35,841 bases of DNA from Desulfuromonadales bacterium (lineage in GTDB: Bacteria; Desulfobacterota; Desulfuromonadia; Geobacterales; Pseudopelobacteraceae): NCBI GenBank assembly GCA_016650295.1, contig JAENWA010000103.1, forward strand, positions 1-35,841, written 5' to 3'. Made by a program: the position numbers and the translations under genes. The notes under the pieces are model-generated. The model was given only the letters and a program-made list of their open reading frames with translations. It ran no database searches and was not told the DNA's origin. Positions within the stretch are counted from its first letter, which is position 1. Every line of letters begins with the position of its first letter. This document shows, piece by piece, positions 8,332 to 26,132 of this stretch.

Positions 8332-8365
8332 CAGTGCGTGTCTCCTTGAAATGAGTATGAGGCAC

Positions 8366-8395
8366 ACTATATCACATCCGTTTCCGGATTGTCAT
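8366..8395 (-). promoter_or_regulatory. promoter of the P460 gene
   Basis: On the minus strand ATGACA (8390-8395), an 18-base spacer and TATAGT (8366-8371) form a sigma70-like promoter; the alternative -35 TGACAA gives a 17-base spacer. The predicted start is about 28 bases before the ATG at 8331. Confidence 0.6.
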
Positions 8396-11400: not shown

Positions 11401-13638
11401 GGTTATGGCTGTGGCATTGGCATTGGTAAGCGTAAGGGTAAGTGTTGAAATCTGCCCCTTGCCGATGGTCGACGGCGAGAAGGCCTTGGCAGCCGTGGGG
11501 GGCGCGAGCACCGTTAGCGTCGCCGTATTGCTGACCGGTCCTGCCGGACTGGTCTCGTTGGCGGTGGCTCCACCGGTGGTATTGTCGTACACGCCCGCAG
11601 TCGAGGCACTGACATTGACCGTAAAGGTACAGATTCCACCAGCTGCAGCAATACCGCCGCCGGCGAGGCGGATGCCGGGATCGCCGCCGGTGGCGCTGAG
11701 GACACCCGCGGCAACCCCGTTCCAGGAGCTGAGCGTACCGCCGCAGGGAGCCGCAGGGGCCAATGCCGGGGGATTGGCTGTGACCAGCCCGGCCGGGAAC
11801 AGATCGTCTAAGGTCAGCCCGGTGAGCGCTACGGTGCTGTTATTGGTGATGGCGATGGTCATCGTCGCTGTCCCGTTTTGCGGGATCGTTGGAACAGAGA
11901 AGGATTTGGTGACAGTGGGCCTGGTGGTAAACGTGACCGTGGCCGATGCAGTGCCGCCGGTACCGCCATTGGCTGACGACACGGTGCCGGTCGAGTTGGT
12001 GTAGCTGGTGTTGGCGCTTGCCGAGGTGACATTTGCGATAATGGTGCAGCTCTGCCCGGCAGCCAGGGTACCCCCCGTGATCCCGATCGTAGTGCCGGTC
12101 ACGGTCAACGTGGCGCCGGGGCAGGTAGTTACGGCTCCGGAGGGGACGGCGAAGACCAGACCAGCCGGAGACGAAGGGAGGGTATCTGAAACAGCAATGC
12201 CGGTCAGAGCCTGGCTGCCGTTCAGGTTGGCAATCGTCAGGGTCATGGTCGCTATCCCGTTGACTGCAAGCGAATTAGGGGTAAACAACTTGGCGATGGT
12301 CGGTGCACGCAGCACCAGAGTCGTGGCAGTGGCAGGCACATTGTCCGTGACCTGCAGCGTGCTGTCGATAATGATCAATCCGATCCGTGCCGTGGCGGAG
12401 TTAGTGTAAGTGCCGGGCGTAGCGGACAGATCAACCTGGAAGACCAGGGAACGGGTTGTTCCGGCCGGGACGGTGAACAGCGACGACCAGGTCAGAGTCG
12501 TGCCGACAATGCCGGGATCAGCGAACGCGGCGCCGTTGAAGGTGGTTGAACCGTTCACGTAGCTTGCGCCGGCCGGGAGTACATCGATGAAGCTGTCAAG
12601 GGTCGTATTATCCAGACCGGAGTTGGTGGCGTTCACCGTATAGGTAACCCGTCCCCCCTGAGTTGGCAGGGTGGCATGGCTGACTGTCTTTGTCAGCAGT
12701 ACTGATGCCTGGGCCGATGAGATCGGCGGCAGGCTGCCGCTTGAATACGCTCCGTTCGTCAGGCTGGTGTGCTTGATCTGCGAGCCGCTTGCCAGGTAGG
12801 AGACGGGGGAGAGCGACGTTGAGACTCCGGTCGTGCCGATCGCCCGGAAATAGTACGTCGCGATATAATGGGAGGTCGAGGATGCCGGAACATTATCGAT
12901 GTAGAGAGTATTATTGTATGTCCCGGAGTTTCCTCCTGAAAGAGTGACGTTGCTGCCGACCATCTCGTAGGCATCCGCACGCCAGCTGGCGAAGGTGGCC
13001 GGAGTGAAAGCCAGCGGGCCGGCAGAGGAGCCTGCACAGGCAGATGGCGGATTAACACAGCCGGTAGTCCCGGTGTCGCCATCGACGGTCATGGTGACGA
13101 TCCCCCCCAGGGTAGCCGGGTTGGGTCCGGAAATGATCACGTTGACCTGATTGGGATTGGCCTGGATGACGTTGTTATTAATTGTCGTCGACAGGGTTGT
13201 TGAACTCACCTGGGAGCCCCCCGCGGACGGGTTACCGTTATAGACCTTGACATCATAAGTCTGGGAAGGTGAGCTGTTGAGGGTAGTGTAGGATGAACAG
13301 AGATAAAAGAACGCCGCATTGGTTTGTCCCGCTGTAAACAGTCCGATGTGGAAAATTCCGTCATCCCCCCCGCCAGGCGATAAATACCCGCCGGTGAATC
13401 CGCCGATAGTTGCCCAAGCATCAGTGATAGTTGTTGAACTGTCAATGGTGAACGACACATAACTGCATTTTGGCACACCAGGGGCTGTGGTACTCGTGTC
13501 CGTATAGAAGTTCAGCCCTGATGTTCGCGTTACCGTTATAGCGGCCCGCGCCTCCGCCGCGACCAGGAAGATCAGTACAAACAGAATCGCAATGAATTTA
13601 CTCTTACGTATATGTTTTTTTGAAGTTTGTCTGATCAT
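8413..13638 (-). CDS. giant secreted repeat protein (DUF11 / DUF7933-type)
   Basis: A 1741-aa exported protein. A basic N-region and hydrophobic core (FIAILFVLIFLVAAEARA) make a signal peptide. After a unique region of about 280 residues comes a DUF11-like module (about 312-430), then nine tandem repeats of roughly 110-135 residues. Each repeat opens with a [PT]-T-[IV]-x-K-[ST]-F-like motif, contains TNPNATxITGxxFTDTYPAG-like text, and carries one cysteine pair (C-[GP]-G ... S/G-C-[TS]-[IF]). A final DUF11 module (LQVTKVSNVSSVNPGG) ends the protein at LSVQVD with no anchor, sortase motif or transmembrane helix. The composition is very rich in T, S, N, A and G, as in surface fibres and adhesins. 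The ribosome site is weak (AAGG at a distance). It lies 28 bases after the 2046-aa gene, in the same transcript. Confidence 0.85.
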   Translation of the reverse strand: MIRQTSKKHIRKSKFIAILFVLIFLVAAEARAAITVTRTSGLNFYTDTSTTAPGVPKCSYVSFTIDSSTTITDAWATIGGFTGGYLSPGGGDDGIFHIGLFTAGQTNAAFFYLCSSYTTLNSSPSQTYDVKVYNGNPSAGGSQVSSTTLSTTINNNVIQANPNQVNVIISGPNPATLGGIVTMTVDGDTGTTGCVNPPSACAGSSAGPLAFTPATFASWRADAYEMVGSNVTLSGGNSGTYNNTLYIDNVPASSTSHYIATYYFRAIGTTGVSTSLSPVSYLASGSQIKHTSLTNGAYSSGSLPPISSAQASVLLTKTVSHATLPTQGGRVTYTVNATNSGLDNTTLDSFIDVLPAGASYVNGSTTFNGAAFADPGIVGTTLTWSSLFTVPAGTTRSLVFQVDLSATPGTYTNSATARIGLIIIDSTLQVTDNVPATATTLVLRAPTIAKLFTPNSLAVNGIATMTLTIANLNGSQALTGIAVSDTLPSSPAGLVFAVPSGAVTTCPGATLTVTGTTIGITGGTLAAGQSCTIIANVTSASANTSYTNSTGTVSSANGGTGGTASATVTFTTRPTVTKSFSVPTIPQNGTATMTIAITNNSTVALTGLTLDDLFPAGLVTANPPALAPAAPCGGTLSSWNGVAAGVLSATGGDPGIRLAGGGIAAAGGICTFTVNVSASTAGVYDNTTGGATANETSPAGPVSNTATLTVLAPPTAAKAFSPSTIGKGQISTLTLTLTNANATAITGATFTDTYPAGVTTAAIPNASMTCPGGSVSSTAGSVSLSGATIPANSSCTVTIDVTSNVVNNPGYVNTFGVGAVTTGNAGSNSASASATLIVNATPTITKSFSFNSLTGVSTMNITITNNHTAGISGLSFTDLFPGGMWTDNPPVLSPATPCGAGSTLQSWDGSTAGPLSGTGGDSGIRLTAGQITTAGGSCTFSINLSVTSLGVYANQTSGVSLTAPFSGTGSPSNSAAWIAPAISKTFTPNTVGPGDISRMELRITNPSLTIPLTGLALGDSYPTTATLPNGNPLAAAMTNSATPNATSTCGGTVTSAANGTGTTLTGASLGARGVCTISVDVHAVNTTPATYYNTTARVSSVQGIGSTGSDALYVVTKPTVNKSFLTNPATLSGGTSSSVMRITIKNNAGINITAVSLTDSFPSTPSQMRWVNTVANSCGGALTDAAGAALVSNNSTGIKLTGGAITAAAVTCTIDVTVSVSATGNYDNVTSGVTSSANPSPGPNSNTATLTAYLSAPAVTKTFANGIFQTGGTNRLTITLTNPNTAAITGLTFTDTYPANLFNAAAPNLTSTCGGTATAAPGSGTLSLTGGTIPASGSCSLSVDVTTTLPGSYTNMLTAGTIISTNANTAPAVDVSANSVAYVPPTVSKNFAPSKIPVGGTSNMTITVTNPAANLGNLTGVIINDIYTGTLLNNAGGSVVCAGGSATLTGGAAAGGSVGFNAGSIAPGGSCTITQSVTATATVNNSTTAPTASGPVVLTGAPAGPISLMAFSSPTIAKSFVAATIDVYEPSAMTFTLTNPNATNLTNVNFTDTLTGFYVRSTTIGGTCTGVTSAPALVVGATALNLTVPTLSAGSCTITISVTASLPGSYNNTTSGLTATETGAVVGLVSNTANLVVKRLPLQVTKVSNVSSVNPGGIINYTIGYTNPNANAFFTNVVISDPLPAYTTFVSASCDTPLPATITGCVIAAPAVGSAGTVTWTLGGNLDAGASGIVRLSVQVD

Positions 13639-13666: not shown

Positions 13667-16600
13667 TCACTGTTTGTTTATCCACGAGGCAGCATCCTTG
13701 ACCGTTTGTTGATCGAACTTCATCCGGAAGCGGAGAAACGGCCCCTGGGCGGTGTAGGCGGCGCTGGAGAAATCCTTGTCTTCATACCCCAGGAGATTGT
13801 AACCGACGCTGACCCAGGTGTTCTCTACAATATTACATCCAAGTGAAGGGCCGAAACTATACGCCAGCTGTCCACTGTGCCAGGAATGCAGCAGACTTCC
13901 GCGCATTCCGATATCCCATTTTTTTGTGATATCGTAGCGCGTCTCGACACCGATATTATCCGTAAAACTGCTGTAGGTACTGCCGTCAATGGTCTCGCGA
14001 ACAACCTTGGCGCCATACTGCAGCGAAACCTGCAGATCTTTACGCGGCCGATAGTTGGCATTCAGGTTGTTCACAAACCGCAAAGATGATGTATTCGTGC
14101 TCGAAGCTCCGCCGCTCTGGCGATCGAGGAAACAGTCCAGACGGTTGAGCAGGATCCATTTTGTCTGGGGCGGACGGAATACGAGACCATAGCGCAGGTT
14201 GGCTTTGGTCGTGTCGATACCGGCGGCATGCGTCTGGAAAATCTGGGCGCGACCCGACCAGGCCCAGCGACTGTCAACCTCGGCGACCAAACCGCTCAAG
14301 AGACCCCATTTTCTCTCCGATGCCGCCAGACGGTATTCCAGACGATTGTCCCAGGTCAGATGTTTAACCTGATAGCTTGCACCGCTGGAAACAGCGGTAA
14401 AGTTCTCATTGGTTCCCGATGCAGGGGGTACCGACGTATTGAACTGATAGTGCGACGCCTTGGCCAGTGTCTGGCTTCTGTCCAGACCGGCGTCGATCTT
14501 CCAGGCATCGCTGATCTTCCAGCTCTGCTTGAGTCCGACATTGGCAAAGACGCGTTCGTCATTTTCATTGAACTGCCGCTCGACGCTGCTGGTAATCGCA
14601 GCGCCCTCCCAGAGCGTGGAACGCATGCCCAGACGGGTATTCTGCGTGATGGCGCCCGTCCCCCAGGTGAATTCCTGAGCAGCCAGCAGGGAGACGTTCT
14701 TGGTGGCCTTGAATTCGGCCCCCAGGGTTGTGCGGGTCGGGAAGTCGCTGTTGCTGTTACTGCCGATTGACTGGGCATGGTCCATGGTCAAGGTCAGACG
14801 ATCGTACAAGGTCAGGACCTTTCCGCCCATGGTCACCTGGGTTGACTGCCTGCTGCTGGAGTCACCCAGACGGTCGTTCGCGTACAGGACTCCGATCGAG
14901 GCTCCGTATTTTTTGTCGGTATAATTCAGTTTTCCCTCGGCCACATCACGCACAGCGCCGGTCAGGAGATTGTACTGCCGATAGGTATTGGCACTGACGC
15001 CGGTATGTTCGGAGAAGCGATACGCGCCTTCAACTCCGAATTTGCGGGTGCCCGCCTCGCTGCCCGGCTGCTGTCCCAAACCGAAACCGGCATCCTGCTC
15101 ACGGAAATAGCCTTTGACATCATACTGCTTTGAGGTGTGCAGCAGCTCGGCCAGATAGGCATTGCCGTTACGTCGGTCCGTTCCGGCGGAAAAGTCGCTG
15201 GAAGCAAATTCGGCCCGCAGTTTGGTCGTTTCTCCCAGTTTCAGGGACGCATCCGCTCCATACAGGTTGCCGGCACGATCGCCCTGTCCTTCGTGAATAT
15301 AGGTTCCACCGGCCTTGAGCCGGTTGTCCAGCAACTTGACGCCGGCACGGCCGCCATAGGTGTAGTCCTGTCCCGCCGCGGAACGGACCTCATATTCGAC
15401 AACTATTGTAATCGGGTTAAACTTCTCGTCACGGTCGTGAATCGGCTCCTTGAAGATCACGGCGCCGGTATCGTAATCGATGGAATAATCCGCAAATCGG
15501 CTCAGGAGGCGGGATGAGACCAGCACCTCGCTGCGGAAACGGTCGCGTACCTCCAGGGTGATGATCTCGGAGTTAGGCACGATATTCCTGCGGGAAATAC
15601 GGTAGATTCCCGAGGTGCCGTCACCCGGGATCTCGTCCCGCACGTAAGCCTGATCGGTCTCGCTGGCAAAGGCATTGACCTCGTAATTTCTGGCCTGCAG
15701 CTCGGTCTTGACGCCGGTCATGCGGCGGCTGTAGCGCGACAGTTCGGTCACGGTCAGACCGGTGTCATAATCGCCAAACATGGCATAGAACTGTTCCCGC
15801 TCGATCTTGATGTACAGTTTTTTGGCGCTGGCCGAGTCGTATTGCTGCTGGGAGGCATCACCGTACAGGGTGTAGAATGTATCGGGATTGATCGTCTGAA
15901 ACAGGCCGTCGCCAGTGTCAGCCTTTGTTTTGGCGGTGTCATAGGCCATGGTCAGCAGCCACTTGCCCTGGACCTGCCCCTTGGCAAACAGCGCAACACG
16001 GCCATCCTTGTAGAGATCTTCGGCCATATTGGTGCCTTGCAGGCTTTCCATATTGCCGGATGCGGTATTGTAACCGAGCGTACCCTCAGCCAGGCCGACC
16101 AGAATCCAGTCGCGCAGCTTGGGCTGCACATAGGTTTCCACTTCTATGGCAACCGCATTATATCCGAGTACGATCCGGTAAAGACCGCTGCTGGTGACCG
16201 GCTGGAACAGGACATCACCATCCCTGCTCATCTGCACCGGCGTAAAGCTTCCGGCAACCGGGGCGCTGGCGAACAGGTCATTCTCTTTGATCGGTTTGAG
16301 CGTGCCGCCACGGATTTCCAGGGCGGTTTCGGCCGGGATGCGGACGCCATCGACGTCATACAGTTCAAGCTTGAATTTGACGGGTGTCTTGCCGTCAGCC
16401 ACATTGCCCTCGGCCGATTTCAGCCGGATGGATGCGATTTCACCGCTGCGCTTGACCGTGATGGTCTGTTTGAAACGGGCATTGCCAAAGGGGTCCATCC
16501 CCTGAAGCTGAACCACGTGATCCCCACGCTCGCCGAAATCGACCCCGATATAGCTGTAGAGTGTTTTTTCGGCTTTGGTGTCTTTCATCGAGAATCCGAT

Positions 16601-19600
16601 GCGCTCCGCCGGAACCTCCTTGTTGTCTACCAGCAGACGCGGAGTCAGACGGGAACTGAGACAGATGCGGATACCATTGATCTTGTCCAGGATGATGGCG
16701 TTTTCCGCCGGTGAAAGGATCCCATCGGCATCCTTGATGGTAGTGGCAGGTTCCTTTCCCGGAGCAGAAGCGGCCGGGACAGCGCTTGGCGCTGAAGTCA
16801 GCACACCGGCCGTTGTCACAGCGGATGCGGCCCCAGCGGTGATCGCGGCAGTGCCGCCGGTTTCAGGTCGCGCCGGCGCGGTATCCGTGTTCTGTACAAC
16901 GGGTGCGGCGCTTGCGGGAGACCCGGCCACAGCAGCATTCGCGGGCTGCATTTCAGGAGCAGCCGGAACAACCGCGTCAATCGGTGCGGCGGTCTCGGCT
17001 CGCTGCTCACCACTAAAAGCCTTGATAATCTGCAAGCGTGACCGGTCAATTATACGAGTAGAGCTAATCCGGACCTCGACGCGCCGATTGAGAGCCCTGC
17101 CCGCTTCAGTACGGTTATCGGCAATCGGAGCGGATTCCCCTTTGCCGTCCAGGGACAGTTTTTCGGGCGGGAAGTGGAGCTTATCCATCAGATAGTGGCC
17201 AACACTCCTGGCGCGCCCCATGGAGAGCGCCTGATTGTCCCTGTAGCGATCACGGCTGCGCGGCGCGATACGAACGTTATCGGTGTGCCCGGTGACATGG
17301 ATTCTCTCGGTATTCAGACCGACCAGCAGGCGGGCCGTTTCGTCCAGCCGCTCCCGGTCTTCAACACTCAATTCGTCACCCATGACCGGGAAGTGCGGAC
17401 GCAGGACAATCTCGGGCATCTGCTGGATCTCTATATCCTTGTTCAACTGAAGGGTTGTCTCGGCCGGCGGTGTCAGCAGACCGGTCCTGGAATCGCCATC
17501 AGTGGCCAGATAGGCCTGTGTCACGAGTTTACTGTTTTTGACGGAGCCGGACAGCCGGCCCCGGAAAGTTATCTCGTGACGCCAGACAGCGGGCAGGCCA
17601 TCGAGCCTGAATACGAGTCCGGCAGTGCCGTTCTGCGATGGGTCGGCGATGACGGCGCCGTCCATCCGGCTGCTGTCCGGCTCATAGAGCACGCCTTCCG
17701 GCAGGGTCACGTTGAGCCGGGCCGCCTGCAGCGGCATGGCGTTCCCCCGCATGGTCGCATGGTAGGTAATGCTCTGGCCTTCAACCGTGCTGGCAAGTTC
17801 CAGAATGATCTCGCCTTTGGGCAACGCGGGTGCGGCGGCCGGTTTTACGGCAACAACCGGCGCAGGGACAGGTTTTACCTTGGTTGAGCGGATATGAAAA
17901 TCCGTGCGCCAGAGGGTGCCGCCCTGGGTTTCAACAAACTGTGAATAGGCGCGCCCCGCAAAACGACTGTTCTCGGTGCAGGGATTGGCCTCGTATCCGT
18001 CCGGCAGCGAGTCCAGGTCCATTTGCACGACATGCAGCCCGGCACGGACACCTTCGAAATGAAATAGTCCGCGCTTGTCACTGATAACGAATGAACCGTC
18101 TTCGAGATAGACACGGACTCCCTCGATACCGTCCGGGCCCTCGCCGGTTTCGTCGCTGCAGGCGCCGCTCGAAACGCGTCCCATCAGGGTCGAACGGGTT
18201 CGCAGGAAATCATCCTTGATCGTAACCGTGGCCGAGGCGCTGTTGGTTTTCGTTCCGTTTGCAAATAGAGCTACCGCGCTGTTGATGGCAGGTCCGAGCC
18301 GCGTTCCGGCCGTGACCTCCACTACGTAATCGATAGTATCCGTAGAGCTGCCCGCCAGTATACCGAGATCGAAGGAGAGGGTTCGGCCATCACCGGAGAC
18401 CGTCGGTCCAGCGGCCGGAAGGCCGTTAATCCTGACCGATCCGCTGCGAAGCCTGAGACCGGGCGGCAGGGTATCGACCACCCGTAGCGTGCTGGAGGTA
18501 GCTATGGAGCTGCTGTTTGTCAGCGTCAGTCGGTAGGGGATGAAATCGCCCTGCCCCACGCTGTCCTTGCCGGCCGTCTTCTGCAGCCAGAGCCCTGCTG
18601 AAGGATCGAGAGGGATATCGATGCGCAGGGCCGGCCCCGGATTGACGGTAAACGCCTCGGCGCGGGACCCGCTGACGAGTGCAAACGGTGCGCCCGGCAA
18701 GGTTTGAATGGTTGCGGACGGCACAGTGCTTGGTCCCGTGTAGCCGGCCGGCGACGTGATCCTGTACTGGTATGTGCCCGGCAGAACGAAGGGGAAGCGG
18801 TAGCCTCCCGGCTGGAATGCGTACTCCCGACCGCTGCTGTCTTTGGCGGAACCGCCGCTGATGAGCGTTGCCGGGTAAATACTGACGCCGTCGTCGCCGA
18901 AAATCGTGGCCGGCAGACCGGTAGCGCTATTGATCATGGTAATGGAAGCGCCATTGACCGGCAGACCGCTTCCGCTGTTGAAGACGATGCCGAAGGGGTC
19001 AATCATGATGGCCGTCGTCGAACTGTCGCTGCCATCCACGATGTCTACGTAACGTACGGTCAGAACTTGTCCATCGACAACCGACATATTCCCGCTGTAG
19101 GGAACCGGCGGAACAGAGGAGGTGGGCAGATAGCCGATGAACACGCCGGTATCAGGCCCGGTCTCGGTCAGGCGGATGACCTCCACCTCGCCGTTAGCCG
19201 GGTTGGTGATCGTGACAAAAACCGTTTCAGCCACTAAACGGTTAAGGTTTTGATCCTTGTCGGTCAGGCGGATAAAGAGCGGCTCACCCTGGTGAAGCTG
19301 AGAGGTTGCTGTCAGCGGAACCGGCCTGCTCAAATCGATAGGGGTGGTGGACCCGACCGGGACCGGGGCCGGCATAGTGACAAACGGGTCGCCGGCGGCG
19401 CCGCCTGTCCGGTAGGCGCTCGGGGCAACGTTTATCAGTTCGGCTCCCGACAAAAGCGGCGCATACGTGAGAAACTCGATGGTGGAAGGTGTCCGGACAA
19501 CCACGGTTACTGTTACCGTGGATATTGAAGTTGTGATACCCGCTGAAGTGAGACTGGCGCTGTTGACGACCAGATCGCCCGGAGACGGGGTGAGCGGGAA

Positions 19601-19807
19601 GGCCACAGACGGAGCCAGGGAAAGCATAACCAGAGCCGGCAATACAGCAGTGACGGCGGCTGTTTGCAGACACGCAAGGAGATTCTTCAGGCCGAAACTG
19701 AACGAGGCGCGTGCGCCTCCGCACCCTGTCAAGGGCGCACAAGCCGGCTTTCCGGTCTTTCGACCGGGAAGCCTGTTGCTCAGTTTGTGTATATAGCCAA
19801 GAATCAT
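13667..19807 (-). CDS. giant DUF11-OmpA-beta-barrel outer-membrane protein
   Basis: A 2046-aa protein. Regions by residue: a long signal sequence with its core at about 42-69; unique beta-rich part 70-400; DUF11 405-530; SdrD/carboxypeptidase-regulatory-like module 536-640; second DUF11-like module 665-790; OmpA-like peptidoglycan-binding domain 800-916 (IHVTGHTDNVRI ... GKGESAPIADN ... ALNRRVEVRI); Ala/Pro-rich linker 930-1025; Ig-like segment 1070-1225; and from about 1230 a long series of amphipathic strands rich in Y, R and Q that reads as an outer-membrane beta-barrel. It could bind the cell wall, span the outer membrane and hold or export the neighbouring DUF11 proteins; that role is inferred. 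The ATG at 19807 has AAGG seven bases upstream. The unusually long N-region coincides with strong RNA hairpins. Confidence 0.85.
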   Translation of the reverse strand: MILGYIHKLSNRLPGRKTGKPACAPLTGCGGARASFSFGLKNLLACLQTAAVTAVLPALVMLSLAPSVAFPLTPSPGDLVVNSASLTSAGITTSISTVTVTVVVRTPSTIEFLTYAPLLSGAELINVAPSAYRTGGAAGDPFVTMPAPVPVGSTTPIDLSRPVPLTATSQLHQGEPLFIRLTDKDQNLNRLVAETVFVTITNPANGEVEVIRLTETGPDTGVFIGYLPTSSVPPVPYSGNMSVVDGQVLTVRYVDIVDGSDSSTTAIMIDPFGIVFNSGSGLPVNGASITMINSATGLPATIFGDDGVSIYPATLISGGSAKDSSGREYAFQPGGYRFPFVLPGTYQYRITSPAGYTGPSTVPSATIQTLPGAPFALVSGSRAEAFTVNPGPALRIDIPLDPSAGLWLQKTAGKDSVGQGDFIPYRLTLTNSSSIATSSTLRVVDTLPPGLRLRSGSVRINGLPAAGPTVSGDGRTLSFDLGILAGSSTDTIDYVVEVTAGTRLGPAINSAVALFANGTKTNSASATVTIKDDFLRTRSTLMGRVSSGACSDETGEGPDGIEGVRVYLEDGSFVISDKRGLFHFEGVRAGLHVVQMDLDSLPDGYEANPCTENSRFAGRAYSQFVETQGGTLWRTDFHIRSTKVKPVPAPVVAVKPAAAPALPKGEIILELASTVEGQSITYHATMRGNAMPLQAARLNVTLPEGVLYEPDSSRMDGAVIADPSQNGTAGLVFRLDGLPAVWRHEITFRGRLSGSVKNSKLVTQAYLATDGDSRTGLLTPPAETTLQLNKDIEIQQMPEIVLRPHFPVMGDELSVEDRERLDETARLLVGLNTERIHVTGHTDNVRIAPRSRDRYRDNQALSMGRARSVGHYLMDKLHFPPEKLSLDGKGESAPIADNRTEAGRALNRRVEVRISSTRIIDRSRLQIIKAFSGEQRAETAAPIDAVVPAAPEMQPANAAVAGSPASAAPVVQNTDTAPARPETGGTAAITAGAASAVTTAGVLTSAPSAVPAASAPGKEPATTIKDADGILSPAENAIILDKINGIRICLSSRLTPRLLVDNKEVPAERIGFSMKDTKAEKTLYSYIGVDFGERGDHVVQLQGMDPFGNARFKQTITVKRSGEIASIRLKSAEGNVADGKTPVKFKLELYDVDGVRIPAETALEIRGGTLKPIKENDLFASAPVAGSFTPVQMSRDGDVLFQPVTSSGLYRIVLGYNAVAIEVETYVQPKLRDWILVGLAEGTLGYNTASGNMESLQGTNMAEDLYKDGRVALFAKGQVQGKWLLTMAYDTAKTKADTGDGLFQTINPDTFYTLYGDASQQQYDSASAKKLYIKIEREQFYAMFGDYDTGLTVTELSRYSRRMTGVKTELQARNYEVNAFASETDQAYVRDEIPGDGTSGIYRISRRNIVPNSEIITLEVRDRFRSEVLVSSRLLSRFADYSIDYDTGAVIFKEPIHDRDEKFNPITIVVEYEVRSAAGQDYTYGGRAGVKLLDNRLKAGGTYIHEGQGDRAGNLYGADASLKLGETTKLRAEFASSDFSAGTDRRNGNAYLAELLHTSKQYDVKGYFREQDAGFGLGQQPGSEAGTRKFGVEGAYRFSEHTGVSANTYRQYNLLTGAVRDVAEGKLNYTDKKYGASIGVLYANDRLGDSSSRQSTQVTMGGKVLTLYDRLTLTMDHAQSIGSNSNSDFPTRTTLGAEFKATKNVSLLAAQEFTWGTGAITQNTRLGMRSTLWEGAAITSSVERQFNENDERVFANVGLKQSWKISDAWKIDAGLDRSQTLAKASHYQFNTSVPPASGTNENFTAVSSGASYQVKHLTWDNRLEYRLAASERKWGLLSGLVAEVDSRWAWSGRAQIFQTHAAGIDTTKANLRYGLVFRPPQTKWILLNRLDCFLDRQSGGASSTNTSSLRFVNNLNANYRPRKDLQVSLQYGAKVVRETIDGSTYSSFTDNIGVETRYDITKKWDIGMRGSLLHSWHSGQLAYSFGPSLGCNIVENTWVSVGYNLLGYEDKDFSSAAYTAQGPFLRFRMKFDQQTVKDAASWINKQ
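19705..19773 (-). promoter_or_regulatory. strong RNA hairpins inside the start of the 2046-aa gene
   Basis: Hairpin 1 (19746-19773) pairs GGCTT with AAGCC and CCGGTC with GACCGG around a 4-base loop that reads GAAA on the minus strand. Downstream, GTGCGCC (19711-19717) can pair either with GGCGCAC (19734-19740) or, as part of AGGCGCGTGCGCCT (19705-19718), with itself, and CCCT/AGGG (19724-19735) offers a third helix. Several of these helices exclude one another. All lie within codons 12-35 of the gene. Confidence 0.4.
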
Positions 19808-19865: not shown

Positions 19866-21071
19866 TTACGGGTTAAGGGTTACCTGGTAGAGCACCAGAA
19901 CGCTCTTGTTGCCGCCCGGAATCGAACCGCCGGCGGCGTTTGTAGCCCCGCTGCCGATATTGACCGTGAGGGTCTTCGTTGCCGCATCATACTTGGCATT
20001 ATCCCCATCAGCGGCTGCTGACAGAGTCGTAGCGACATTCGTATCACTGACATAGGTAATTTCCTTGCCGATGCCGTAGGCATTGGGCCGCAGGGTAACA
20101 TAGCTGGTCGGCAGAACGTCGTTGACAACAGAAGCGTTGACTGCTCCCGATCCGCTATTGGTGGCCACCAGGATGTACTCAAGGGTCTCGCCCGGTTTTG
20201 CCGTGACACCATTCGGGTAGTAATTGATGCCGGTGTAGATGTAGGGCACCCCGCTGCCGCTGGCTACGGAGACATTGCGAACATACTTGTTCAGGGTTGC
20301 CACACCGCTGGTGTAGTTATTGAGGATGGAGCCGGAGGTCGCCGTTGCTCCGGCGGAACTGACCGAAGTTGCGGTAAGGGAGTCAGAGACCGTCACGTCG
20401 GTGCCGGTAACTGTGATGGTCCCGGCGGTGACCGTGGTCGTTACCACCTTCTGTTCAGCCACCAGCACACCCACGCCGGGCGCGGCTCCCAAAGCTGAAT
20501 TCAGGGTGATGGTGGAGGTTCCGCTGGCGTTGTCGGTGATGGCGATAACCGTGCGGGTTTCGCCGTTGATGACCACGGTGTCCCCCACCTGGATACCGTT
20601 GACACCCGACATCTCTCCCGGCAGGTTCCCGTCGGCGGGTACGACAATGGTCGTTGTGGTACTGCCGACCGTGGTAACCGATGCGCCCAGGGCGACACTG
20701 GCGGCAGTGGAGGTGGCGGTTGCTCCGCTGGTGTTGGTGGAACCGGTCACCGCTGCTGACAGGTTGTAGGTGTCTGGACCGTTGGCGCCGGCGGTAATGG
20801 TGTAGCTGTCGGTGAGGATCGTCGCGGCGCCTGCGTACGAGGTGCTCTGAGGCGGTCCGGGGATGATATTGGGCGCCGAGGCAACCAGTCCGACTGTCAC
20901 GGTAACACTGGCAGAGGCGGTCTTTGTGGAGACACCGTCGCTGTAGGACAGCTGGGCCTGGTTGATGATCTGCGTGTTGGCCGCCATGTTGGCCCGGGCC
21001 GGTGCGGCTGACAGGGCGCCGAGCAGAGCCATACAGAGCAAGGCTGAATATGGTTTTAAACTGAATTTCAT
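19866..21071 (-). CDS. exported DUF11-type surface protein (401 aa)
   Basis: A 401-aa secreted protein. The signal peptide MKFSLKPYSALLCMALLGALSAAPARA is followed by a domain opening NTQIINQAQLSYSDGVSTKTASASVTVTV, then a Thr/Ala/Val-rich middle and a C-terminal DUF11 module (LNKYVRNVSVASGSG ... GVTAKPGETLEYILVATNSGSGAVNASVVNDVLP). It ends at YQVTLNP directly after the last predicted strand. It parallels the 385-aa neighbour in layout (signal, 'N-x-A-x-V-x-Y-x-S/G-x' opening, middle, terminal DUF11), so the two are likely ancient paralogues. The ATG at 21071 follows GAGGGA. The next gene starts 58 bases on. A structural subunit role is inferred from context. Confidence 0.82.
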   Translation of the reverse strand: MKFSLKPYSALLCMALLGALSAAPARANMAANTQIINQAQLSYSDGVSTKTASASVTVTVGLVASAPNIIPGPPQSTSYAGAATILTDSYTITAGANGPDTYNLSAAVTGSTNTSGATATSTAASVALGASVTTVGSTTTTIVVPADGNLPGEMSGVNGIQVGDTVVINGETRTVIAITDNASGTSTITLNSALGAAPGVGVLVAEQKVVTTTVTAGTITVTGTDVTVSDSLTATSVSSAGATATSGSILNNYTSGVATLNKYVRNVSVASGSGVPYIYTGINYYPNGVTAKPGETLEYILVATNSGSGAVNASVVNDVLPTSYVTLRPNAYGIGKEITYVSDTNVATTLSAAADGDNAKYDAATKTLTVNIGSGATNAAGGSIPGGNKSVLVLYQVTLNP

Positions 21072-21166: not shown

Positions 21167-22324
21167 TTACTGGACCGTTACATTGAAGATAATGGTTGCA
21201 ACCCCGAGGGCCGGCAGAATGCCGGAAGCTGCCACACCTCCAGTACGACCAGCGTCGTTGTCAACCAGCAGGCCTCCGCCGACCAGCGGTGAAGAGCCTC
21301 CGTCACCAGCCACTGTAATCGTGTTCAAACGGGTGGAGTTGGCCACATAGGTCGTGTAGGCCGGCACCGGGTCGATAACGGTGACGGCGTTGGCAGAGGC
21401 TGTGGGGTGGGTGTTGGTCACAGTGATCGTGTAGGTGATCGTGCCGCCCGGACTGGCGTTCGCAACGTTGGCGGTTTTTGTGATCGTTACGCGTGGTGAG
21501 GACACGGTGGTTGTCACGCTGGTTGCGGCAGCAAGGGTGCTCAGTGCTGAAGGCAACGCTCCCGTTGTAATAACGAAGTTGGTGACGTACGAGCCGTCGG
21601 TTCCTGCGGTAGTTGGTGTACCGGCGGTAAGAGCTGCCGTCAGGGCCGTATTTTTGAATTCGCCGACCTGGGTACCGGCGGTTACAGAACCGGCGGTGAT
21701 GGCCGGACTGGCGCCAATCACAGCCAGGGTCAGCGTGGTCGGGCCCTCGGCCACCAGGTTACCCGAGCCATCGGTGGAGGCTGCCGTTCCGGCAGTTATA
21801 GTCGAAACCGTATACTTGTTGGCTCCGATCTGGACGGTGGAGGTGCCTGCCGACAGGCCGGCGGTGGTGTTAAAGGGAACCGTGATGGTGCCGGCTCCCG
21901 AACCGAGTGCGATACCGCCCCAGAGCTGAACGCTGGCAGTAACGGAGGTGGCGGTTGCCGCACTGATGCTGGTCGGGGCGTTGGACAGGGCCGACGTGGT
22001 GTAGGTATCAAGTCCGTTGGCGTTTGACTTGAGGATGTAGTCGTAGGTGACAGAGGCGCCGGCCGCTACGGTCTGGCCGGTCGGGACGGTGATCGTCGGC
22101 AGAACCGTCACGGTATTGACGGTAACGCTGACATTGGCGGTCGCGAAGAGCGTGTTCGTACCGGACTGGTAGGTCACCTTGACCGTGTTGTAGATGGTGG
22201 CGTTACCGCTGGTTCCCGCGGCCTGGGCGGCCTGCGGCAGGGCAAAGGTCAGACAGGCCAGCAGCGCCAGGCTGCCGAACACGGTCTTGACCGCTGTCAT
22301 ACTGCTGTTTCGTAGCTGTTTCAT
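21167..22324 (-). CDS. exported DUF11-type surface protein (385 aa)
   Basis: A 385-aa secreted protein with a signal peptide ending LPQAAQA near residue 35. The mature part opens GTSGNATIYNTVKVTYQSGTN, has a Thr/Ala/Gly-rich middle, and ends with a canonical DUF11 module (VTITKTANVANASPGGTITYTITVTNTHPTASANAVTVIDPVP) closing at FNVTVQ. No anchor, cysteine or transmembrane segment is seen after the signal peptide. The ATG at 22324 has a very strong AAGGAGG, the best ribosome site in the cluster, so it may be the major subunit. It is followed by a strong hairpin and then the 401-aa relative. Confidence 0.83.
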   Translation of the reverse strand: MKQLRNSSMTAVKTVFGSLALLACLTFALPQAAQAAGTSGNATIYNTVKVTYQSGTNTLFATANVSVTVNTVTVLPTITVPTGQTVAAGASVTYDYILKSNANGLDTYTTSALSNAPTSISAATATSVTASVQLWGGIALGSGAGTITVPFNTTAGLSAGTSTVQIGANKYTVSTITAGTAASTDGSGNLVAEGPTTLTLAVIGASPAITAGSVTAGTQVGEFKNTALTAALTAGTPTTAGTDGSYVTNFVITTGALPSALSTLAAATSVTTTVSSPRVTITKTANVANASPGGTITYTITVTNTHPTASANAVTVIDPVPAYTTYVANSTRLNTITVAGDGGSSPLVGGGLLVDNDAGRTGGVAASGILPALGVATIIFNVTVQ

Positions 22325-22398: not shown

Positions 22399-22518
22399 TT
22401 ATCCACTGTAACAGGCCGGCGTCCCCGGCGATGTGCCGGGCTGCCTGAGACCACCCTGAGGTCCGGCCCTGCGATTATTCGGTTCTGTGTTACGTTTTTT
22501 GGCGTTTGGACAGATCAT
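22399..22518 (-). CDS. possible 39-aa small protein in the surface operon
   Basis: An ATG at 22518 stands behind an almost ideal AAAAAAAGGAGG ribosome site with 5-base spacing and opens a 39-residue frame, MICPNAKKRN ... GTPACYSG. It is basic, rich in Gly, Pro, Arg and Asn, has two cysteines near its ends (residues 3 and 36) and no signal peptide or membrane helix. It fills the 247-base gap between the 162-aa and 385-aa genes. It could be a real small protein, a leader frame affecting the next gene, or chance; the ribosome site is the main argument. The 3' half covers a GC hairpin (CCCGGC/GCCGGG). Confidence 0.45.
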   Translation of the reverse strand: MICPNAKKRNTEPNNRRAGPQGGLRQPGTSPGTPACYSG

Positions 22519-22571
22519 ACGTTCCTCCTTTTTTTCGTGGGCTATGCTCTGTATTCGAACCGGCTAACCGG

Positions 22572-23060
22572 CTATTTCATGCGAACCTGGAAACCAACCT
22601 TGCCGCTGACGCGGGGTGGAATGACGCTGACTGTCCAACGGATGTGGGTGTACTCCTCGGGAGAAGCGCTCCGTTTTTCAATAGCGCCGTTAGGGCTTTT
22701 GAACTCGTAGGTCAGGAGAGACGGCTTTTTGAAGGTCTTTCCGCCGTCGATGGAAAAAGTTATTTCGGCCCCCTCGCCATAGGCGCTGCCGGAGACATAA
22801 AGCGTCCCTTTGGGGATTGGGTCGTCCATGACCGCTGCGGTAGCTGCTTCGTCACCGCTGTTGACATAGCTCATGGTGTAGAAAACGACATCTCCCGGGT
22901 CAACAGAGGTGGCTGGTACCTTCTGTTTCACCTTTTCGCCGTTTTTGACGGTCTTGACCTCTTTTTCAGCGGTGATGCTTACCGAAACAAGGGGCTTGGC
23001 AAAAGCCGTGGCAGCCATCAGCACAACAGCAGCAATAACAACGAATACCTTACTTTTCAT
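22572..23060 (-). CDS. exported DUF11-like protein (162 aa), first gene of the surface cluster
   Basis: A 162-aa secreted protein with a signal peptide (MKSKVFVVIAAVVLMAATAFA). The mature part is a single DUF11-like beta-sandwich: VKQKVPATSVDPGDVVFYTMSYVNSGDEAATAAVMDDPIPKGTLYVSGSA, then FSIDGGKTFKKPSLLTYEFKSPNG and a final strand KVGFQVRMK. It is lysine-rich, unlike its Thr/Ala-rich neighbours. The ATG at 23060 follows AAGGAGATCACC; longer frames upstream have no support. It is the first gene after the riboswitch-terminator leader and so the most directly controlled. A minor or initiating subunit, or a periplasmic helper, would fit. Confidence 0.83.
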   Translation of the reverse strand: MKSKVFVVIAAVVLMAATAFAKPLVSVSITAEKEVKTVKNGEKVKQKVPATSVDPGDVVFYTMSYVNSGDEAATAAVMDDPIPKGTLYVSGSAYGEGAEITFSIDGGKTFKKPSLLTYEFKSPNGAIEKRSASPEEYTHIRWTVSVIPPRVSGKVGFQVRMK

Positions 23061-23121
23061 GGTGATCTCCTTTTTCATTTCTCTTATTTTGCACGGTAAA
23101 ATTATAGAAATACGTTTAGCC

Positions 23122-23140
23122 GGAAAGGGCTCCCCTTTCC
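23122..23140 (-). promoter_or_regulatory. hairpin in the leader before the 162-aa gene
   Basis: GGAAAGGG-CTC-CCCTTTCC (23122-23140) gives an 8-bp stem about 60 bases before the ATG at 23060. It is too far to hide the ribosome site and has no T-run; an RNA-stability role is possible. Confidence 0.35.
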
Positions 23141-23370
23141 CGCCGGTTGATGTTGTTTTCTCATGCCAGAATTTTCCCTCGGCAGACCGTTTCCAGTTAA
23201 CGTTTATCCCCCTCCTCGTGATATGACGTAATGGGTGACAAGATTTGCTGCCAAGCACCGGACAAAAAAATAGGGCTTGACAAAAAAAACACATTTTTTT
23301 AGCCTGTTATATACATTAAAAAGCTACAAGTTATTATTTACCAGTTTTGTAGGGAAACCTTGACAACTTA

Positions 23371-23404
23371 AAGCAAATTCAATACCAACTTATTGATTTT
23401 GCTT
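23371..23404. repeat. inverted repeat in the long leader
   Basis: Arms AAGCAAATTCAATA (23371-23384) and TATTGATTTTGCTT (23391-23404) are complementary with one mismatch and six bases between. It lies between the riboswitch terminator and the first surface gene, in A+T-rich DNA that holds nothing else I can call coding. A second short inverted repeat, AACATG/CATGTT, lies just beside it at 23410-23428. Confidence 0.4.
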
Positions 23405-23473
23405 GACTTAACATGTATACAGCATGTTTATTATATTTTTGTTATCTCACGTGAATCAAATAGTAATGACCAG

Positions 23474-23515
23474 TAATAAAAAAAGCGTCCAACTCTTTGG
23501 CAGAGCTGGACGCTT
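23474..23515 (-). terminator. intrinsic terminator of the riboswitch leader
   Basis: On the minus strand two 14-base arms (23502-23515 and 23483-23496, AAGCGTCC type, one G-U pair) enclose five bases and run into seven T residues. It stands 36 bases after the GEMM aptamer and about 420 bases before the first gene, the usual layout of a transcription-terminating riboswitch. The bases AGCTCT in its first arm can also pair with AGAGCT at the 3' side of the aptamer (23562-23567), a possible antiterminator. Confidence 0.85.
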
Positions 23516-23550
23516 AGTTTCATTGGGCATTTCTCAATGTCCAAACGTGC

Positions 23551-23668
23551 CTGACTCCGCAAGCTCTTCGGTAACCCGGCTATCCATGTGCCTCTCTTGT
23601 AAGTGAAGGTCATGAACCCGTGGCTTTGCGTCACTGGATTACTCCAGTTTTGCCATTATCGGAGTTAG
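23551..23668 (-). promoter_or_regulatory. GEMM-I cyclic-dinucleotide riboswitch aptamer
   Basis: The minus strand carries the GEMM-I core in order: GGCAAAAC, a small hairpin (CTGGAGTAATCCAG), the signature TGACGCAAAGCCACGGG, a variable hairpin loop, and GGATAGCCGGGTTACCG. A closing stem pairs ACTCCG (23660-23665) with CGGAGT (23554-23559). These conserved blocks are characteristic of c-di-GMP-I riboswitches. Aligning GGCAAA to the Vibrio Vc2 aptamer puts G at the position called G20, which favours c-di-GMP over 3',3'-cGAMP (A there in the Geobacter cGAMP-sensing variants); this alignment was done by eye. It is followed by a terminator and controls, by position, the DUF11 surface cluster. Confidence 0.88.
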
Positions 23669-23717
23669 GTTTTAATTGCAAGTTTACATTAGTATTTCCT
23701 GAGTTAATTCATTGAGC

Positions 23718-23734
23718 GCTGTTATAATAACAGC
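23718..23734. promoter_or_regulatory. perfect 17-bp palindrome upstream of the riboswitch
   Basis: GCTGTTAT-A-ATAACAGC is a perfect palindrome with a one-base centre, about 50 bases upstream of the aptamer, where a regulator of the riboswitch promoter would bind. The centre is too short for an RNA hairpin with full pairing, so a protein-binding operator is more likely. The regulator is unknown. Confidence 0.45.
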
Positions 23735-23779
23735 TTGGCGACATGTTAGAGAGATTCTCACAGTTCAACAATAAGATTC

Positions 23780-23799
23780 AATACCCTAAGTAGGGTATT
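23780..23799. promoter_or_regulatory. 20-bp palindrome in the intergenic region
   Basis: AATACCCTA-AG-TAGGGTATT has perfect 9-base arms around two bases. It lies between the GGDEF-EAL terminator and the riboswitch. TTTTCT follows on the plus strand, so a plus-strand terminator is conceivable, but no plus-strand gene is near; an operator is the alternative. Confidence 0.4.
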
Positions 23800-23928
23800 T
23801 TCTATCACCCATTTGATTGACTTGTTCTTAACGGCCTCGCATTTTGCCTGAGAACGGGAATTGAAATGGAGTTTCGTGTAGATTATCTTGACGTGGGAAT
23901 GAACGGTGGGTAATTGTATGAAAACATA

Positions 23929-23953
23929 GAAAAAGGGGCCCATTAGAGCCCCT
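23929..23953 (-). terminator. intrinsic terminator of the GGDEF-EAL gene
   Basis: On the minus strand AGGGGC (23948-23953) pairs with GCCCCT (23934-23939) around eight bases and is followed by a run of T. It lies 38 bases past the stop at 23991 and separates this gene from the riboswitch transcript. Confidence 0.7.
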
Positions 23954-23990
23954 GGGAATGGATCTGGTACTATTAAGCAAACACAGCCTG

Positions 23991-26132
23991 TTAAACCTTA
24001 CGGCGGTCAAACCATTCCGTTTCCGGAAGTTTTTCGACCCGTTTTCCGTGTTTCTTTCCCAAACTTTCAGTCAGAGCCTCGGCTTGCATCGGCATTGCCA
24101 GGTAATAGCCCTGGACTTCGTCACAGCCCAGCAATGTAAGCGTGTGCAATTGGTCGCTGTTTTCAACACCTTCCGCTAGAACCCGCATACTCAGACTCTG
24201 GGCCATGGACACGATAGCTTCGATTATCGCTGAATCACTGTTGTTTCGATTAACGTCGGCAACAAATGATTGATCGATTTTGATCCGGTCAATGGGAAAA
24301 TGTTTCAGATAATTCAGAGATGAGTACCCGGTGCCGAAATCATCGATGCTCAGTTGAATACCCATCTCCTTGAGCCTGCGTAATATCTCGATGGTATTTT
24401 CAACATTATCCATAATAACGCTTTCTGTAAATTCCAACTCAAGATTCCGCGGATCGACGCCGGTCTCCTGGATTATATTGGCGAGCATTTCAAGAAACGC
24501 GGGATGTTTCAACTGCTTCCCGGAGATATTCACCGCAACCTTCAAATCACTATGACCTTTCAGAGTCCAGTCCAGCGCTTGCGTACAGGCCGCACGCAGT
24601 AACCACTCTCCGATCTTGTTAATAAGGCCGGAATCTTCAAGGATGTAGATAAACGTTGACGGCAGCATCAAACCATAATCAGAACTTTGCCAGCGCAAAA
24701 GCACCTCGACACCGACCATTTTTGAAGTTTTCAGATCCCACAGCGGCTGATAATGCAGAAAGAACTCCTTTTTATCGAGTCCGTTACGCAGGCTGTTTTC
24801 AAGAGCAACCCTCTTCAGAATTTTCTGATTCAGTTCGGCCGAGAAGAACCTGAATTGTGCTCTCCCTTCATTTTTTGCCTGGTACATGGCCGTATCGGCA
24901 CACCTGAACAGGGCTGATGCATCCAGACTGTCATCAGGGTAGACTGCGATGCCGATACTGGCACTGCTGTAAATCTGGTGACCTTCAATCTCGAAGGGTT
25001 CGTAAAAAATTGCCTGTATCCGTTTGACAACAGAAGCAACATTCTCCTGGGACGCAACAACAGGACAGACCACCACAAACTCATCCCCGCCAAGTCTGGC
25101 CAAAACGTCCGATTCACGCATGCAGGCGGAAAGCCGATCCGCAACCAGACGAAGCAGCCTGTCTCCGACATCATGTCCCTGCGTGTCATTCACATCCTTG
25201 AAATTATCCAGGTCAAGAAAAATCAGGTTGACCTTGCCCCGGTCACGCTGGGCCTTGGCCAGTGCCTGGTGCAGATGTTCAAGAAACATCCCTCGGTTAG
25301 GCAGTCCCGTCAGCACATCATAATAGGCTAACTGGTGTATTTTTTCCTCCGACTCTTTTCTCTCGGAGATGTCTTCACAGGTAGTGATAATCCCCAGACA
25401 GCAAGCCTCGCTGTCGCGGACAGGTATCGATGTAAGCTGGGCCGGGAATTTCTCACCGTTTTTTCTGACGTTTACGCACTCGCGCCGCCACAGGCCGATT
25501 TTCTTGAACTGCTCAGTGGCCAGAGGTCTACCGCGACTGTCAGAGGAGAATTTCCTGGCTTCCTTGCCGATCAGCTCCTCGACCGTATATCCATGCATCC
25601 GGGCTTCGGCAGGATTCGAGTAGACGATAACTCCCTTGACATCACTGAAGGTAATGCCGATCGGAAGGCTATCCACAGCCACCTTGAGCACTTCCAGCCG
25701 GCCCTGATTTTCGGCCAGTTTTTTCACATTCCGGCTGGCACGCAACATGTATCGCACACGGTGCACCAGAAGTTCGGGATTGACCGGTTTCGCGAAAAAA
25801 TCGGTTGCTCCGGCTTCAAAGGAACGGTGAATCAGCTCCGCGTCATCACTGCCGGTAATCATAAGAACAGGTGTATGTTCTCCCTCCGGATGTTTGCGAA
25901 TATCCCGACAGGTATCACACCCGTCCTTTCCCGGCATGAAGACGTCAAGTAATATCAGGTCCGGACGCAACTCCGTGAAGAGACTCAGCGCGGAGTCGCC
26001 ATCCTCTGCCTGAACAGCTTCGAAACCGGCGGCAGACAGGGCGTTCTGAAGCAATACACGCATCAGTTCATCATCATCGACAACCAGAATGAGCGGTTTA
26101 TCCATTATTTTCGTGTTAACAGGATCAAACAT
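23991..26132 (-). CDS. REC-PAS-GGDEF-EAL c-di-GMP signalling protein
   Basis: A 713-aa cytoplasmic response regulator. The receiver domain (about 14-130) has the acidic pocket DDD (19-21), phospho-acceptor Asp63 (LLDVFMPG) and Lys115. A PAS domain follows (about 143-258, SDVKGVIVYSNPAEARMHGYT). The diguanylate cyclase domain (about 268-430) has an intact GGDEF (348-352) and an inhibitory RxxD site (RESD, 339-342) at the correct spacing. The EAL domain (about 445-700) reads EVL (475-477) but keeps the catalytic Glu and the other expected residues (NISGKQL, ELEFTES, DDFGTGYSS, KIDQSF, AEGVE, QGYY). Both making and breaking of c-di-GMP are possible. The ATG at 26132 has AAGGAG ten bases upstream. 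No partner kinase is adjacent. Confidence 0.93.
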   Translation of the reverse strand: MFDPVNTKIMDKPLILVVDDDELMRVLLQNALSAAGFEAVQAEDGDSALSLFTELRPDLILLDVFMPGKDGCDTCRDIRKHPEGEHTPVLMITGSDDAELIHRSFEAGATDFFAKPVNPELLVHRVRYMLRASRNVKKLAENQGRLEVLKVAVDSLPIGITFSDVKGVIVYSNPAEARMHGYTVEELIGKEARKFSSDSRGRPLATEQFKKIGLWRRECVNVRKNGEKFPAQLTSIPVRDSEACCLGIITTCEDISERKESEEKIHQLAYYDVLTGLPNRGMFLEHLHQALAKAQRDRGKVNLIFLDLDNFKDVNDTQGHDVGDRLLRLVADRLSACMRESDVLARLGGDEFVVVCPVVASQENVASVVKRIQAIFYEPFEIEGHQIYSSASIGIAVYPDDSLDASALFRCADTAMYQAKNEGRAQFRFFSAELNQKILKRVALENSLRNGLDKKEFFLHYQPLWDLKTSKMVGVEVLLRWQSSDYGLMLPSTFIYILEDSGLINKIGEWLLRAACTQALDWTLKGHSDLKVAVNISGKQLKHPAFLEMLANIIQETGVDPRNLELEFTESVIMDNVENTIEILRRLKEMGIQLSIDDFGTGYSSLNYLKHFPIDRIKIDQSFVADVNRNNSDSAIIEAIVSMAQSLSMRVLAEGVENSDQLHTLTLLGCDEVQGYYLAMPMQAEALTESLGKKHGKRVEKLPETEWFDRRKV

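Follow-up and report, generated by a model that had tools for sequence, protein, structure and literature searches.

A c-di-GMP-I riboswitch with a predicted transcriptional ON platform upstream of a DUF11 surface-protein cluster

Results

The locus

The DNA analysed here, referred to as the window, is a stretch of 35,841 nucleotides that forms the whole of contig C103 in the 4.07-Mb draft genome of a Desulfuromonadales bacterium, a relative of Geobacter whose bacterial group is known for its contact with minerals and electrodes. A cluster of genes on the minus strand is preceded by a structured leader and, further upstream, by a gene for a response regulator. In the direction of transcription, the features are:

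23991–26132, minus strand: upstream gene, RR-PAS-GGDEF-EAL response regulator of 713 aa (Pfam; GGDEF, EVLLR and DDFG motifs)
23780–23799, minus strand: palindrome AATACCCTACTTAGGGTATT / AATACCCTNNTTAGGGTATT, candidate regulator site
23660–23669, minus strand: P strand CCUAACUCCG, the CUCCG part being the 5′ strand of the aptamer helix P1; the whole strand can alternatively pair with L
23566–23663, minus strand: c-di-GMP-I (GEMM-I) aptamer, with G20 at 23654, A47 at 23627 and C92 at 23571
23648–23633, minus strand: GUAA-capped P2 of the aptamer
23564–23571, minus strand: A strand CCGAAGAG, 3′ strand of P1 (CUC:GAG, CG:CG, AA bulge)
23550–23560, minus strand: L strand GCGGAGUCAGG, which can form either a 9-pair outer helix with P or the antiterminator with the terminator arm
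23500–23560, minus strand: predicted antiterminator hairpin (−24.0 kcal/mol), using most of the terminator 5′ arm
23478–23515, minus strand: intrinsic terminator (−23.9 kcal/mol), T tract to 23478
23430–23459, minus strand: promoter-like TTGATT-18-TATAAT directly past the terminator, which would bypass the switch if used
22572–23060, minus strand: first gene, DUF11 protein of 162 aa with a hydrophobic N-terminus
21167–22324, minus strand: DUF11 protein of 385 aa (Pfam)
19866–21071, minus strand: 401-aa protein without a Pfam hit, weakly similar to its neighbours
13667–19807, minus strand: 2046-aa protein with DUF11 and OmpA domains (Pfam)
8413–13638, minus strand: 1741-aa protein with DUF7933 repeats and DUF11 (Pfam)

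Judged by its domains and motifs, the upstream 713-aa protein is probably a c-di-GMP enzyme. An earlier note on this DNA had counted 15 kb of DUF11-type genes downstream of the leader, which is true of four of the five genes down to position 8413 (about 14.6 kb), all carrying DUF11 and/or DUF7933, but not of the fifth (19866–21071) with its lack of a Pfam hit. The hydrophobic N-termini of the cluster proteins, read by eye, predict that these are exported. A cytochrome P460-type protein with one CXXCH is encoded 45 nt after the cluster (7867–8367, minus strand) and may share its transcript.

About 420 nt separate the terminator from the first start codon, and no clear gene lies between the terminator and the first DUF11 gene. 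We considered a second structured RNA at 22990–23480 and rejected it, as there is no Rfam match better than E 6 and the fold z-score is −1.44; the same region has no useful DNA relative, the search returning three matches of 20–29 bases (E 0.004–0.008). Promoter-like sites number four on both strands of 22400–24100, where 2.2 are expected. The palindrome, whose layout TACCCTA-NN-TAGGGTA we take to resemble NarL-type sites, occurs with up to two mismatches at two places in the genome only, in the window and on contig C105 (L094), in both cases 110–114 nt upstream of the ACUCC of an aptamer copy. Among relatives, genome G037 has three one-mismatch matches, and no aptamer was seen in the 330 nt after each of them.

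Aptamer and ligand pocket

The GEMM-I aptamer that had been recognised by eye is confirmed by Rfam: cmscan places an aptamer of the c-di-GMP-I clan at 23663–23566 on the minus strand, with the best E-value for RF03167 (c-di-GMP-I-GGC; 64.2 bits, E 4.2e-13, gathering score 59), and in a search of the bacterium's own genome the same aptamer reaches 66.3 bits with RF01051, far above the gathering cut-off of 35. Neither model gave a match in the 14 control genomes of the same searches. The two conserved blocks reported earlier lie at 23633–23622 (TGACGCAAAGCC) and 23585–23570 (GGATAGCCGGGTTACC). For the pocket positions we used the Vc2 numbering, combined with the numbering of the cGAMP riboswitch in PMC6274999. 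By this mapping the pocket consists of G20, a G21-C46 pair, A47 and C92, which is the canonical c-di-GMP set, and the G presumed at Vc2 position 20 is indeed present, at 23654.

A ligand other than c-di-GMP, sensed by either a c-di-GMP-I-GGC variant or a cGAMP sensor, is suggested by the E-value of RF03167 and by the company of the aptamer: the genome holds 18 RF01051 matches, and 11 other aptamers have A20 with a neighbouring C-G pair like cGAMP riboswitches, as assigned from their sequences. The name 'GGC' presumably denotes bases 20, 47 and 92, and the RF03167 consensus has G at position 47 whereas the window has A (23627); the window thus passes RF03167 by overall likeness and not at that base. 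A47 is shared by 129 of the 130 aptamer-like matches of the loci compared, window included, and the remaining one is probably a chance match. At position 20 the window has G and not the A of GEMM-Ib cGAMP sensors, and according to PMC6456294 an A-to-G change at nucleotide 20 converts a Geobacter cGAMP riboswitch to c-di-GMP. We therefore rejected the GGC variant for the window on account of A47 and the cGAMP sensor on account of G20. Another ligand being highly improbable, the RNA element very probably senses c-di-GMP, as far as pocket letters can tell.

Folding of the leader

The proposed ON platform would be built of the strands P, A, L and T, in that order, T being the terminator arm. A terminator with seven T residues had been noticed before and was recovered at 23515–23483 as a stem of 14 pairs (7 of them G-C) with a loop of 5, two of the seven T lying inside the stem. 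Its distance of 36 bases from the aptamer, as previously given, roughly stands if CGGAGUCAGG (23559–23550) is taken as the closing strand (34), but fails for the canonical P1 strand CGAAGAG, which ends at 23564 (48). The P:L helix (9 pairs) and P1 are mutually exclusive, and by computation the terminator arm has an alternative partner that is tied to the aptamer, as in a transcriptional riboswitch.

The antiterminator, at −24.0 kcal/mol, is far more stable than shuffled linkers placed before the same arm (−13.3, sd 2.6 kcal/mol; 1 of 2000 as stable). For the L × T duplex alone 6.7% of shuffles are equally good, so it is the whole hairpin that stands out, and P:L alone is not significant (13.5–15% of shuffles equally good). 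When the transcript length was scanned, the ligand-free RNA kept P:L from 23552 to 23504. With a bonus of 9 kcal/mol on P1, L:T reached 1.00 at 23500–23492, and P:L was still at 0.61 at 23548 and 0.59 at 23488; since P:L returns despite the bonus, the outcome depends on how tightly the ligand holds P1. At 23500–23496, L:T is favoured at equilibrium even without ligand (0.81–0.95), and at full length the terminator wins both with and without P1 held. Hence, the ON sign rests on kinetics, that is, on timing. A heuristic path search estimated the barrier to the terminator at 14.8 kcal/mol from P1 plus antiterminator and at 3.0 kcal/mol from P:L. At 23545, P:L is more stable than P1 by 6.5–11.2 kcal/mol (three energy sets, two temperatures), and at 23498 P1 plus antiterminator and P:L are within about 2 kcal/mol of each other, with one energy set putting P:L slightly ahead. 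As holding P1, which the ligand should do, favours the antiterminator, the leader is predicted to be an ON switch.

The earlier note had arrived at the opposite sign, which its author marked as inference. There, as in an OFF switch of the Cd1 kind, A would pair with the terminator arm in the ligand-free RNA (AGAGCU:AGCUCU), and c-di-GMP would hold A in P1 and thereby free the terminator. Cd1 works in this manner according to PMC9262584; moreover, the window's own A:T duplex has −11.2 kcal/mol, the fourth best of 57 arms, and at 23498 the forced A:T state is just 1.2–3.2 kcal/mol less stable than P1 plus antiterminator. Against this, a pair in the middle of AGAGCU:AGCUCU is present in at most 1% of the window's ensemble at every transcript length scanned, and the duplex does not rise above chance, being equalled by 35% of shuffles (11% with another shuffle). 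One of its pairs is broken (C.A, read from the alignment) in the second leader copy of this genome, on contig C3, and L:T is both stronger and compatible with P1. By the same computation, pairing of the P1 3′ strand with the terminator 5′ arm, which defines Cd1-type OFF switches in the ligand-free state, stays at or below 1% in the window.

Leaders of the same type in relatives

Relatives of the first DUF11 protein were found at 43 loci of named genomes, and an Rfam run on 40 of them gave an upstream match of the GEMM-I clan at two. One is in Geomonas sp. Red32 (L219), where the P strand is identical to that of the window and the L strand reads AGGAGCUAGG; the other, scoring 38.2 bits, is L215 of a Desulfuromonadales genome. 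DNA matching the Geomonas leader was found in at least 68 of 141 genomes of the order, many of the matches being plain aptamer matches, and as five candidates were scored per genome, absences in this search prove little. The exact linker pattern gave 0 matches in the named genomes, a set that possibly does not include the window's own genome, and a repeat search of locus L254 gave none.

A strand pattern retrieved 32 leaders, of which 19 in 17 genomes have (G/A)GAG as L and were kept; the 13 that were dropped are 12 with TGAG instead of (G/A)GAG, plus L279. Because the selection demanded CUCC, CGAAGAG and a nearby GAG, some of the constancy of P1 and of part of P:L comes from the selection itself. 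The AGG of L, absent from the selection pattern, is nevertheless invariant in all 19, and the tip or loop of the terminator carries CUC(C/U), also outside the pattern, in 19 of 19. The G20/A47/C92 pocket is likewise present in 19 of 19, although G20 and A47 were no part of the pattern. Selection on the P strand alone found CUCC(G/A) before position 20 in 39 of the 162 aptamers compared, and 33 of these 39 have the A strand CGAAGAG, which is complementary to CUCCG. After the aptamer, the L motif (G/A)GAGNNAGG is present in 19 of 20 cases with (A/C)CUCC but in none of the 19 with UCUCC and none of the 123 remaining aptamers, leaders being counted as they come and uncorrected for kinship; the sole (A/C)CUCC aptamer that lacks it is a broken copy.

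Across the 19 leaders, P:L exceeds 0.5 before T is made in 16, and L:T exceeds 0.5 in 17 with P1 forced and in 10 without forcing, while A:T does so in none. With P1 forced, the arm loses less than 1 paired base in each of the 19; relative to forced P:L, a gain of 3 or more paired arm bases is seen in just 11. The antiterminator falls below 5% of 300 shuffles in 16 leaders. When own partners were compared with swapped ones, L × T was preferred with P values of 0.0006 (19 leaders), 0.002 (15) and 0.004 (9), A × T with 0.036 (19) but 0.14 and 0.22 in reduced sets; P × L gave 0.24 (19) and 0.27 and 0.12 in reduced sets. P1 shows no covariation in the 19 leaders, as it never varies, and neither does P:L, for which 82 of 500 shuffles scored as high. 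On its own, the L-T contact involving the base that precedes GGAG falls short of significance (P 0.066; 0.24 on distinct types). Taken together, sequence variation backs L:T, while the case for P1 and P:L comes from their constancy and from the way the L motif accompanies the P strand. The A × T preference in the full set of 19 speaks for the OFF switch of the Cd1 kind, and the failure of the AGAGCU:AGCUCU pair to reach 50% in any of these leaders speaks against it; we regard this switch as unlikely here, and the OFF sign is not what computation supports for the window's leader.

The constancy of L allows a different route to OFF, in which P:L is a longer P1 that coexists with the ligand, so that c-di-GMP would stabilise P:L, block L:T and cause termination. 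This would agree with the invariant AGG, which the selection did not demand, with the way L accompanies the P strand, and with P:L being the computed ligand-free fold before T exists; Cd1, according to PMC9262584, binds without a detectable P1. We find this route very doubtful, as a P1 made of P:L only has no need of the CGAAGAG that recurs in 33 of the 39 P-selected aptamers, and as the base after the pocket C, which is within P1 in the cGAMP riboswitch structure described in PMC6274999, is left unpaired by P:L.

The linkage of leader and DUF11 cluster, which the earlier note had drawn from the window, recurs in 13 further genomes of the order, in each case upstream of the orthologous gene. 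A DUF11 gene lies downstream of 15 of the 19 leaders (14 of 17 genomes, this one and the 13 others). It is the first plausible gene past the terminator in 8 genomes (9 leaders), its identity resting on profile matches and in one case on Pfam, and is found further down on the same strand, up to 4.6 kb away, in G111, G117, G118, G119 and G131. Three leaders precede SCPU genes, and L284 stands before the gene of a protein that Pfam does not match. In genus g21 the leader is present in 12 of 12 genomes that have the DUF11 gene; by comparison, 18 of the 32 genomes of the order with this gene lack a GEMM match within the flanking DNA searched. These flanks were mostly 1.5 kb long, so that remoter leaders would be missed, and locus L063, which starts near a contig end, is not judgeable. 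The link thus seems real but confined to some lineages.

Another explanation accepts a working aptamer but has the DUF11 cluster driven by a promoter past the terminator, the leader being a relic or a source of short RNA. The risk of such a bypass, raised in the earlier note, stands, given the promoter-like site at 23459–23430 and the 420-nt gap; the distance from terminator to start in relatives is 46–119 nt (eight leaders), and 386 nt where the leader is the outer one of a tandem. The second leader copy of the genome, broken between contigs C105 and C3, points the same way. The gap, however, contains no clear gene, and leaders of the same kind stand before the orthologous gene in 13 other genomes, so that we consider this explanation rather improbable. 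In view of the long gap and the promoter-like site, control by the leader in the window may be partial.

Some further arrangements were seen. Genome G110 (L255) has two very similar leader copies in tandem, at 1228–1421 and 1499–1693, before the DUF11 gene. Related leaders with GAAGAGATGAG occur outside the 19, in runs of two to four aptamers (L269, L270, L271 and L273). The second copy in the window's genome seems to be broken between the end of C105 (L085, 4252–4523) and the start of C3 (L084, 100–245): its 5′ part lies after a putatively sucA-like gene, its 3′ part, which includes the terminator, is followed by the genes of two 537-aa proteins and of a type II/IV secretion ATPase, and both breaks have similar inverted ends that look insertion-element-like by eye.

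Ordinary leaders of the family

For comparison with the c-di-GMP-I family at large, 129 A47 aptamers were reduced to 64 with a terminator and to 57 within the gap limits, window included; these are the best-scoring among the matches listed, plus earlier loci. In these 57 loci, own A × T partners are stronger than swapped ones (sum −545 versus −481 ± 14 kcal/mol; 0 of 2000 permutations). Of 51 leaders that could be evaluated, 47 release at least 3 bases of the arm when the best P:A duplex is forced, and in none does the arm stay as it was; the release is partly built in since the forcing itself ties up A. These 51 are the 56 leaders other than the window's, less 5 in which P1 pairs were too few or the arm was too little paired. 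With at most two inner P1 pairs forced, at least 3 A:T pairs are present in 45 of 57 leaders, against 40 of 57 when free, a comparison that is uninformative on sign. Ordinary family leaders hence seem to be of the Cd1 design and are predicted to be OFF. The A × T preference and the release of the arm, both as in Cd1, mean that the OFF idea of the earlier note seems to be the rule of the family, and in this sense they favour an OFF switch in the window too.

Another G20 aptamer of the same genome, on the minus strand of contig C68 (L086, about 7338–7210), has an OFF-type platform by computation (L058). It precedes a small protein with haem-binding-like motifs, read by eye from the DNA. One signal may thus have opposite outputs in this genome.

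Discussion

We propose that the leader is a c-di-GMP-I riboswitch with a c-di-GMP pocket and a transcriptional ON platform upstream of the DUF11 cluster, a reading we hold to be probable, with its sign taken from computation and its ligand from the pocket. In the absence of ligand, L (CGGAGUCAGG) would capture P (CCUAACUCCG) once it is made, and T, left with no strong partner, would form the terminator. With c-di-GMP bound, P would stay with A (CGAAGAG) as P1, and the free L would pair with T in the long antiterminator, so that polymerase would read through into the surface-protein cluster. The read-through transcripts would presumably be the main mRNA of the cluster.

Beyond the window, we lean towards the view that an ON-type sub-family of c-di-GMP-I leaders, distinguished by its L strand (GGAG..AGG), activates DUF11 arrays and, in some species, spore-coat-U-type genes as c-di-GMP rises, while ordinary OFF-type leaders, of which this genome also has one, would respond in the opposite way. 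This would suggest that minor differences in the platform can give a single aptamer class opposite outputs in related bacteria. An uncharacterised surface-protein cluster thereby gains a probable signal and a testable sign, and the case of RF03167 suggests that an Rfam label can mislead on the ligand if the diagnostic base is left unchecked. In the open-licence literature we found no report of a link between DUF11 and riboswitches and none joining a Geobacter riboswitch with spore coat protein U; PMC11224092 mentions DUF11 and riboswitch in unrelated places.

When compared to known systems, the window shares with c-di-GMP-I of RF01051 the fold, at 66.3 bits, and the G20/A47/C92 pocket, and adds an L strand just outside the Rfam model that recurs together with it, giving a platform that would swap P between A and L. 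From c-di-GMP-I-GGC (RF03167), whose gathering score it exceeds, it differs in having A47 where the family consensus is G. The pilM and GEMM-Ib cGAMP riboswitches of Geobacter are ON switches, and the window is likewise transcriptional and predicted to be ON; these have A20, and according to PMC9262584 their A strand lies inside the terminator, whereas the window has G20 and a terminator that stands apart. With Cd1 of Clostridioides difficile, a c-di-GMP-I OFF switch, the window has in common a terminator that follows the folded aptamer and can coexist with it. Its antiterminator, however, uses L and not A and is compatible with P1, and the window is therefore, unlike Cd1, predicted to be ON.
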